The notes under the pieces: model-generated
The model's database searches: none
Seen by the model: only the letters and a program-made list of their open reading frames with translations
What the model was told of the DNA's origin: nothing
Assembly: GCA_021811105.1 (NCBI GenBank)
Contig: JAJZPM010000022.1
Span: forward strand, 1 to 50,346
Source: Nitrospirota bacterium
Lineage (GTDB): Bacteria; Nitrospirota; Thermodesulfovibrionia; Thermodesulfovibrionales; UBA6898
Direction of reading: 5' to 3'
Length of the DNA stretch: 50,346 nt
Shown here: positions 713-13,687 of the stretch, piece by piece
How the letters are laid out: each line of letters starts with the position of its first letter
Numbering within the stretch: the stretch's first letter is position 1
Position numbers and translations under genes: made by a program

Positions 713-790
713 GAACCGCCGTATGCCGAACGGCACGTACGGTGGTGTGAGAGGACGGCAGGTGAACTAATCACCTGCCTCCTACTCGAT
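713..790 (+). ncRNA. 3' end of the outer group II intron (domains V and VI)
   Basis: Domain V begins six bases after the RT stop. ACCGCCGTA pairs with TACGGTGGT (one G-U), and inside it GCC pairs with GGC around a GAAC loop. Domain VI is a perfect 9-bp stem GGCAGGTGA/TCACCTGCC with an ACTAA loop that can supply the branch-point A. It is followed by CTACTCGAT. The intron therefore ends near 790 and the flanking exon begins with GGGCAG. This is the intron that encodes the RT fragment just upstream. Confidence 0.75.
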
Positions 791-7134: not shown

Positions 7135-9597
7135 ATGGCCGAAAGTCAGAAATCATCTTCGAGGATAGAGCTGCCGGTGACCGGTATGTCCTGTGCTTCG
7201 TGCGCGGCACATATCCAGGAAGGCCTCGCGGCGCTTGAAGGGGTCGATGATGCCGCCGTGAACTTCGCCGCCGAGAAGGCAACGGTCCTCTATGACAAGG
7301 CGAAGGTCTCGGTCGACGACTTCATTAAGGTGGTAAAAGACCTTGGGTACGGCGTATCGGTCTCCAAAGTGATCCTCCCGATCAAAGGCATGTCATGCGC
7401 CGTCTGTGTGGATGCGGTGCAGAGGGCCTTGATTTCTCTCGACGGCGTGATCTCGGCCTCTGTGAACTTCGCTACCGAGAAGGCGGCGATAGAATACTTC
7501 CCGGCCCAGGTGGGGGTGCGGGAGTTCAGGAAAGTGGTCAGAGACGCCGGGTACGACATTGTCGAAACGGAGAAGGGCGAAGATGCGGTCGAAAAAGAGC
7601 AGAGGGAAAGGGAGGCGGCATACAGGACTCTGAAGAAAAAAGTGATCGCCGGCGCGCTCCTTGCCCTGCCGATATTCATCCTCATGCAGTGGGACCGTTT
7701 CGGGATTTCGAGGTTTCTGCCTCTTTCACGGCAGGCAAATTTCATTTTGCAGCTTCTTATAGAAACGCCTGTGCAGTTCTGGATCGGGTGGCAGTTTTAC
7801 ACCGGCGCCGTCTCCGCGGCCCGCCACAGGACAACTAACATGAACACACTGATCGCCGTGGGGACTTCGGCGGCGTATCTGTATAGCGTGGTTGCGACCT
7901 TTTTCCCGTCTGTCTTCGCACTGAAGGGCTATTCGCCGGAAGTCTATTTCGACACCGCCGCAACGATCGTCGTGCTCATTCTTCTCGGCAGACTTTTCGA
8001 GGCCAGGGCAAAGGGGCAGACTTCGGAGGCGATCAAGAAACTGATCGGCCTTCAGGCAAAGACGGCGCGCGTCCTTCGGGACGGAAGCGAGACGGATATC
8101 CCGATCGAAGATGTGGAGATCGGCGATATCGTCATCGTGCGGCCGGGCGAGAAGATCCCGGTCGACGGCGTGATCAGGGAAGGGTATTCGTCCGTGGACG
8201 AATCGATGGTGACCGGGGAGTCGATGCCGGTCGAGAAGAACGTGGGAGACGAGGTGATCGGCGCGACGATAAACAAGACGGGCTCTTTCCGGTTCGAGGC
8301 GACAAAGGTCGGCAGGGACACGATGCTCGCCCATATCATCGATATGGTCCAGACCGCCCAGGGCTCCAAGCCGCCGATCGCGCGACTCGCGGACTTTATC
8401 GCCTCCTATTTCGTACCCGCCGTGATCGGGGTCGCAACGGTGACCTTTATCGTTTGGTACTTCTTCGGTCCCGAGCCCTCGTTCACGTATGCGGTCCTCA
8501 ATTTCATTGCGGTCCTTATCATCGCCTGCCCGTGTTCGCTCGGCCTTGCAACGCCGACCTCGATCATGGTGGGGACGGGCAAGGGGGCGGAAAACGGTGT
8601 TCTGATCAGGAGCGGTGAGGCCCTGGAGACGGCCCATAAAATAAGTTCGGTCGTCTTCGATAAGACAGGCACTCTGACGAAGGGCGAGCCCGAAGTCACC
8701 GACCTTGTATCACGTGGATACAGTGACGAAGAAATTCTTTTCTATGCCGGCTCCGCAGAGAAAGGATCGGAACACCCGCTCGGAGAGGCGATCATAAAAA
8801 AGGCGACGGAAAAGAACGTCGCGATCAAAGATCCCGAGGACTTTGAAGCGGTACCCGGACATGGGATCAGGGCGATCATAGACAGGAAAAAGATCCTGCT
8901 CGGCAATCGAAAGTTCATGGAGGAAGAGGGCATCGAGGTCGGCGGGCTCGGACGGGATGCATCCGCACTGTCCGAACAGGGCAAGACCCCGATGTATTTG
9001 GGAGTTGACGGCAAGGCCGCGGGTATCGTGGCGGTCGCCGATGCCCTAAAGGAGGATTCGATCGAGGCGGTCAGGGCGCTCCACAGCCTCGGCGTCGAGG
9101 TAGTGATGATGACAGGGGACAACCGGCGCACAGGCGAGGCGATTGCGCGCCAGGTGGGGATCGATAAGGTTCTGGCTGAAGTGCTGCCCGAGGACAAGGC
9201 CGGGGAGGTGAAGAGACTGCAGGAGGGAGCAAAGGTGGTCGCTATGATCGGCGACGGGATAAACGACGCCCCCGCGCTCGCTCAGGCCGATGTGGGGATC
9301 GCGATCGGCACGGGGACCGACGTTGCGATGGAGGCCGCGGACATCACGCTGATAGGGGGCAGGCTGAAGGGTGTGGTGACTGCGATCGCACTTTCGAAGG
9401 CGACATTGAGGAACATCAAGCAGAACCTTTTCTGGGCCTTCGCCTATAACGTGATACTGATCCCTGTTGCCGCCGGGGTGCTCTTTCCGTTCTTCGGGGT
9501 CCTTCTTAATCCGATGCTTGCGGCCGGGGCGATGGGCTTTTCTTCCGTGACTGTGGTGACGAACGCCCTTCGACTGAAAAAGTTCAAGGCTGCCTGA
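7135..9597 (+). CDS. copA: Copper-transporting P1B-type ATPase
   Basis: This 820-residue inner-membrane pump probably exports Cu(I), using ATP. It has two N-terminal heavy-metal-associated domains with GMSCASC (Cys20, Cys23) and GMSCAVC (Cys88, Cys91). A basic linker leads to the first membrane helices. The actuator domain shows [14 protein letters not shown]. The transport-site motif CPC is at residues 465-467. The phosphorylated Asp is D509 in [32 protein letters not shown] and [14 protein letters not shown] form the nucleotide-binding and hinge regions. Length and the paired metal-binding domains match CopA. It directly follows the glutaredoxin-like gene without a gap (TAA then ATG), suggesting joint expression in copper or redox stress. 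No CueR-type regulator is seen nearby. Confidence 0.95.
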
Positions 9598-13015: not shown

Positions 13016-13687
13016 TTATCGCGATATCAAATCGACGAGCGATTCGATATCGCCCTCATCAAGAGGACCTCCGTTTGTTTCTTCCCATCCCGGCATCACG
13101 GTATTGTCGACCCCTTCCCGTATCGCCTTGCGCAGGTATTCCCGCGGCTTTTTACTCATAGCGGTGAGCGAAGCATTTGTGCCCGCATTGTGACACATAA
13201 AACAGTCGGCCTTGAATAAATCCCATCCAGTCTTTCCCTTCCCCTGATCGACGTGGCACCCCCTGCATTTTTCGCCGAATATCTCGCCGGCGGCGTAACG
13301 GTCCAGATGTGCCCGGTCTTTTATGTTCATTCTTACGGAAAGGGTGGCAGCCGGCTTTACCGGGTCGTTAGTGTATACAGTTATTGTCTTGGTGATCTTC
13401 CCCAGCCTTCCCCTGACGTCGACCGAGACATTGATCTTTCCTTTTTCCCCGGGCCTGAGACGGTCCGAACTGGCCATCACGGCTGTGCAGCCTCAGGAAG
13501 GGGTGACTTTCTCTATCACCAGTTCCCTGTCGCCCCTGTTTGCAAACTCAAAAGTATGTTCGACGGTCTCTTCCTGCGATATGACAGAGAAATCGTGGTC
13601 CGGATGATCAAAGTGGATTGCGGGCTGCGCATAGGTTGGGATGGGAGTGAAGAAAATGCATGCGATCAATAAAAGAGCTTCTTTCAC
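13016..13687 (-). CDS. Exported DUF1573 protein with two CxxCH motifs; candidate selenoprotein
   Basis: Reading through an in-frame TGA (13493-13495, codon 65) gives one continuous 223-residue protein. It starts with a GTG and a signal peptide ending PTYA. The DUF1573 domain follows: HDFSVISQEETVEHTFEF, then VIEKVTPS-TGA-GCTAVMASSDRL, then the DUF1573-typical KITKTITVYTNDPVKPAATL. DUF1573 proteins normally read SSCGCT here, so the TGA replaces the first conserved Cys and leaves a U-G-C motif. The C-terminal part carries CRGCH (141-145) and CFMCH (162-166), with TVMPGW as a possible axial Met, as in c-type cytochromes. Without readthrough there would be two unrelated-looking fragments, the second lacking a signal peptide although heme attachment needs export. 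A nonsense mutation is the alternative. Confidence 0.82.
13459..13478 (-). promoter_or_regulatory. Candidate bacterial SECIS hairpin (DUF1573 gene)
   Basis: On the minus strand GATGG pairs with CCGTC (one G-U), then an unpaired A, then CC pairs with GG, closed by the loop AGTTC. The loop starts 22 bases after the TGA and has a G at its second position. The bulged stem with a small G-containing loop resembles the E. coli fdhF SECIS. Confidence 0.5.

Follow-up and report, generated by a model that had tools for sequence, protein, structure and literature searches.

A predicted selenocysteine-containing DUF1573 protein fused to a small diheme c-type cytochrome in Nitrospirota

DUF1573, a widespread domain whose function is unknown, is already on record in a selenoprotein form. 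A DUF1573 domain–containing protein (PF07610) with a UGC motif and one selenocysteine (Sec) appears in the tables of two reviews, from 2022 and 2026 (PMC9312934, PMC13188914), which credit the family to an earlier report (their references 63 and 60, respectively). The table of the 2026 review also holds two Sec-containing multiheme proteins, ExtKL (NF040886) and an octaheme family (TIGR04315), so the presence of Sec and hemes in one protein is not new, and that review describes most known Sec residues as redox-active (PMC13188914). The locus analyzed below brings these two themes together. Comparative sequence evidence indicates that it is very probably a selenoprotein gene, encoding an exported Sec-DUF1573 protein of the OS_HP2 type, with a UGC motif, joined to a small c-type cytochrome that carries two hemes.

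The gene lies in a window of 50,346 nucleotides, the whole stretch of DNA that was analyzed, and occupies positions 13016..13687 of the minus strand. Translated with TGA as Sec (U), it encodes 223 amino acids between a GTG start and a TAA stop. The frame, running from 13687 to 13016, contains a sole internal TGA at 13495–13493, in the context VTPS-U-GCTAVM, which falls on the site of the first Cys of the SCGCT motif and corresponds to Sec65 of the tripeptide U65-G-C67. Upstream of this codon the frame encodes a signal peptide (residues 1–20; 13628..13687, minus strand), recognized by sequence reading and expected to be cleaved after TYA in a TYA-QP junction, together with half of the DUF1573 domain; downstream it encodes the remaining half and two heme-binding motifs, CRGCH and CFMCH. 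The translation thus bears out the preliminary description of this DNA, which had proposed a single minus-strand frame interrupted at the first Cys of SCGCT and divided in just this way. A hydrophobic N-terminus ending in xYA-QP is kept in the relatives, again by sequence reading.

Both halves of the read-through protein match established domain families. Residues 24–119 (13331..13618, minus strand) score 94.1 bits against the DUF1573 model PF07610, above its gathering cut-off of 26.1, and the part C-terminal of this domain scores 43 bits against Cytochrome_CBB3 (PF13442), above a cut-off of 27. The first heme-binding motif comprises residues 141–145 (13253..13267, minus strand) and the second residues 162–166 (13190..13204, minus strand); in all 63 fusions that were aligned, C141, C144, and H145 of the one and C162, C165, and H166 of the other are invariant, as is Met198 of the sequence MPGW (13094..13096, minus strand). 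By analogy with class I cytochromes c, Met198 is the probable distal ligand of one heme. His127 (13307..13309, minus strand), which is a His in 39 of 39 Sec-type but 12 of 24 Cys-type fusions, is a candidate ligand of the other. Two CxxCH motifs, a predicted signal peptide, an invariant Met198, and a PF13442 match above cut-off are the sequence features expected of a c-type cytochrome.

Conservation of the TGA codon supports Sec. Protein searches covered 61 relatives and were then extended to 176 genomes from the order and 396 from the phylum. Within the order, 109 matches were obtained, of which 101 carry a TGA, including 38 complete heme fusions, and eight have no stop. Same-genus copies at 95, 91, and 63% identity all have the TGA, and independent genomes keep it at this codon even where protein identity is as low as about 38–45%. 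The genome under study has a second TGA-bearing fusion of its own (C45:141759-142415). In the extracted genes the TGA is followed by GG(N)TG(Y), giving U-G-C, and the sole exceptions among them are tandem-domain proteins with a UxxC motif. The comparison of homologous codons that the preliminary description had called for places TGA in 39 and TGC or TGT in 24 of the 63 fusions, all in one alignment column, and the Cys codons belong to sister lineages that mostly lack SelA and SelB. In a tree of the 63 fusions, 37 TGA genes group in a single clade, and two further ones come from outside the order; a Cys clade lies near the TGA genes, and one long-branched Cys sequence falls within the Sec clade. 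The data call for two or more switches between Sec and Cys. In the plasmid collection, the only DUF1573-like matches came from Bacteroidota-type hosts, and none spanned 80% of the query.

A simpler account would be that the TGA truly terminates translation, or stands for a TGC or TGT that was misread, and that the locus consists of two dead halves of a former gene. The assembly is a draft of 93 contigs, and a single base change would suffice. However, the same TGA recurs in dozens of independent genomes and in the second paralogue of the same genome, which is not the behavior of a sequencing error. The frame and the heme motifs persist downstream of it, and among same-genus pairs dN in the region after the TGA is about 0.02–0.05 compared to a dS of about 0.11–0.20, indicating that the downstream half is maintained as protein by purifying selection. 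Together with the covariation of the hairpin described next, these observations rule out a pseudogene or sequencing error for practical purposes and leave that account with almost no credence.

Sec insertion in bacteria is directed by a SECIS hairpin just after the UGA with GU in its apical loop, and such an element is present here. The predicted hairpin (13459..13478, minus strand) has 7 base pairs and one bulged A, begins 15 bases past the TGA, and presents the apical loop AGUUC at 13471–13467, 21 nucleotides past the UGA; both its starting point and its loop are as originally proposed. A strict perfect-stem reading was rejected, one of the four core positions being C-A in the window; the sequence forms a bulged stem with a 5-nucleotide loop. 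The hairpin folds at −8.4 kcal/mol, which in this short segment is not significantly better than shuffled sequences (z −1.08), and the case for a SECIS element consequently rests on comparison. Across 42 aligned sequences, all four core pairs are altered on both sides (32 cells), none of 500 shuffles attains the observed covariation or percentage paired, and slid registers score far lower. Among 52 distinct TGA genes, 94% of core-stem cells are paired in a single register, all four pairs can form in 50 genes once three registers and a 5- or 6-nucleotide loop are permitted, and the loop G-U-U is invariant in all 52. Pairing at the corresponding positions of 27 Cys genes drops to 43%, and the loop there is unconserved; by this comparison, the hairpin is lost in the Cys homologues.

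The genome also encodes the machinery that Sec insertion would require, as the selenoprotein reading had presupposed. It contains a tRNA-Sec with a UCA anticodon, SelA and SelB as adjacent genes, and a SelD that is itself of the Sec type, with an in-frame TGA at the usual CAGUxxK position (CAG-TGA-AAK; G000:C19:38459-39376, minus strand, L052). More broadly, SelA was found in 72 of 80 TGA genomes versus 6 of 16 Cys-only genomes (Fisher p 2e-5, with shared ancestry ignored; tallies made by hand), and neither SelA nor SelB occurs in the genomes checked of the Cys lineages f22 and f28. SelA gave no match in eight TGA-bearing genomes, three of which have SelB; neither gene was found in the other five, genomes G057, G130, G117, G212, and G246. 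G057 and G130, each with a TGA-type DUF1573 gene, are rated 99–100% complete. Missing contigs or incomplete assembly, or else divergent machinery, may perhaps account for these five cases. A second tRNA in the genome under study also exceeds the tRNA-Sec cut-off, at 62 bits (G000:C10:25953-26043, minus strand; L002 1501-1591); it combines a GCA (Cys) anticodon with a long variable arm, as in the selC*-type tRNA-Cys reported from Nitrospirae (PMC7609411).

The UGA might be read as an amino acid other than Sec, either by general recoding or as Cys, with SelB delivering a tRNA-Cys of the selC* type. The tRNA-Sec-like tRNA with Cys identity in this very genome lends that idea some substance, as do the selC* tRNA-Cys species with UCA anticodons known in other phyla (PMC7609411). 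The GCA anticodon of the present tRNA, however, would not read UGA by normal pairing, which rules out Cys insertion by this route, and a normal tRNA-Sec(UCA) is available. Genome-wide recoding is likewise ruled out, since UGA terminates other genes of the window, such as that for an 820-residue P-type ATPase at 7135-9597. The occurrence of Cys in place of UGA mainly in lineages without SelA and SelB also fits Sec, and decoding as another amino acid is thus very improbable. Conserved TGA, Cys homologues, SECIS covariation, and Sec genes all support the original selenoprotein assignment.

The structure of the protein was predicted with AlphaFold2 from an input alignment of 7 sequences. The DUF1573 part is a confident β-sandwich with pLDDT mostly above 90, and the C-terminal cytochrome half is helical at medium confidence. 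In the predicted secondary structure, U65 sits in the loop preceding a strand that begins at C67. Foldseek matches the Ig-like part to PDB entry 2qsv and to the ASH domains of HYDIN and OCRL, an ASH/PapD-like assignment, and a sequence search of the PDB with the protein gave zero matches.

Gene neighborhoods offer some indication of the setting in which the protein might act. The window copy lies alone, outside any informative operon, with mraZ(-rsmH) divergent on one side and an ATP-grasp gene convergent on the other. Several Sec-type fusions in relatives are immediately followed, on the same strand, by ubiA and a ubiX-like gene (the latter assigned by reading), at gaps of about −3 to 8 wherever the start site is evident; in others the gene directly downstream encodes a protein-isoaspartate methyltransferase. 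The Cys-type fusions of f28 and of some f22 genomes overlap a gene for a DsbA-like thioredoxin, and deeper Cys relatives adjoin a periplasmic rhodanese and a gene that reads as chemoreceptor-like. The neighbors of the Cys relatives suggest periplasmic thiol/selenol or sulfur redox chemistry coupled to the hemes. Elsewhere in the window, a Ni_insertion gene (LarC-type, PF01969; 10790-12115, minus strand) shares the strand of the selenoprotein gene and lies downstream of it, and two Rfam group II intron domain matches are found at the left edge (48-123 and 714-790, plus strand).

Based on these data, a model can be outlined. The hairpin that closely follows the UGA would recruit SelB with Sec-tRNA(Sec), Sec would be inserted at residue 65, and the finished protein would be exported and gain two covalent hemes. 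The Sec-Gly-Cys pair would then form a selenylsulfide/dithiol-type redox center on the Ig-like domain and trade electrons with a substrate in the periplasm, be it a thiol, a disulfide, or a sulfane, a DsbA-like thioredoxin or a rhodanese being candidate partners, and the hemes would link this center by single-electron steps to the cytochrome/quinone chain. Computation supplies the UGA at a conserved Cys site, the covariation of the SECIS element, the Sec genes, and the heme motifs, with the signal peptide assigned by reading; Sec insertion itself, the loading of the hemes, the redox partner, and the direction in which electrons flow are inferred from these. Thiol, disulfide, or sulfane exchange at a UGC center with relay through the hemes is the likeliest of the mechanisms considered, at somewhat less than even odds. 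Its more specific extension, a heme-wired selenothiol module that lies outside the thioredoxin fold, passes electrons between periplasmic thiol/disulfide or sulfur chemistry and the hemes of its own polypeptide, and serves Nitrospirota as a DsbA partner or a sulfur-redox enzyme, is somewhat unlikely as it stands; if true, it would provide a first function for DUF1573.

Two other roles for a true Sec protein deserve consideration. The first is a peroxidase or reductase in which the selenol reduces peroxide, a disulfide, or an oxyanion and the hemes feed electrons in, comparable to cytochrome c peroxidase but with a selenium active site. The redox activity of most known Sec residues and the diheme partner agree with such an enzyme, and the ubiA–ubiX linkage hints at the respiratory or quinone side; yet the Foldseek matches listed include no likeness to thioredoxin-fold peroxidases, and a substrate-specific neighboring gene was not found. 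We regard this role as unlikely. In the second, the UGC motif would bind or deliver a metal or heme in a chaperone function, with no turnover. Ig-like folds are often binding modules, a Sec/Cys pair can ligate soft metals, and the gene for the P-type metal ATPase is some 3.4 kb from the selenoprotein gene, although outside any operon shared with it; the diheme fusion and the linkage to DsbA and rhodanese genes favor redox chemistry instead, which makes a chaperone unlikely. More generally, because the Ig-like fold of DUF1573 is typical of binding modules, its CGC motif could serve structure or metal binding instead of catalysis.

The searches also returned DUF1573 proteins with other arrangements of the motif. 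Four such proteins of family f7 have in-frame TGA in the differing motif URAC or URLC (UxxC). In three of these four, two DUF1573 domains stand in tandem, and each of them has a TGA and an AGTTCG hairpin to itself (TGA at 0-based offsets 3506 and 3866 in L111, 3395 and 3713 in L112, 3276 and 3612 in L113, and 3404 in L114), and the second domain (UKKA or UKRA) is without a partner Cys. Judged by these sequences, the tandem proteins are likely double selenoproteins. Two diheme fusions of family f25, L133 and L134, have the motif CVY, which retains the first Cys but has lost the second.

That a form with Sec and two hemes is conserved across an order is a strong indication of redox chemistry at the CGC/UGC motif, and the association of Cys relatives with DsbA-like and rhodanese genes turns this into a concrete, testable hypothesis. 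It is important to note that standard annotation would split or truncate such genes, of which the 38 Sec-type fusions come from one Nitrospirota order alone.

The novelty of the protein is best judged against its closest counterparts. The preliminary description had suspected a little-described architecture. This holds in part: Sec-DUF1573 itself is an already listed family, and a cytochrome fusion of it was not found described in the literature searched, the portions of the selenoprotein reviews consulted being silent on such a fusion. The new part, which appears undescribed, is accordingly the fusion to a diheme cytochrome. Against NCBIfam NF041425, “OS_HP2 family (seleno)protein,” which by its name we take to be the tabulated UGC family, the window protein scores 82.0 bits (E 2.9e-23), below the cut-off of 100. 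With that family it has in common the domain, the Sec-Gly-Cys motif with Sec at the first Cys of CGC, and the logic of SECIS-dependent decoding; the two-CxxCH cytochrome c domain is its own addition. PDB 2qsv, a Porphyromonas gingivalis protein of unknown function, is the best structural match to the Ig-like part, at 24% identity over the aligned part only and with no matching heme domain in the alignment. Class I or cbb3-subunit-III-type cytochromes c (PF13442) are likewise small helical domains with CxxCH and a C-terminal Met, but in the window protein another invariant CxxCH precedes this one by about 20 residues, and a Sec-DUF1573 domain makes up the N-terminal part. ExtKL and the octaheme proteins of TIGR04315 join Sec to c-type hemes in one protein, as here, but they belong to different families, for which the table consulted names no DUF1573 domain.
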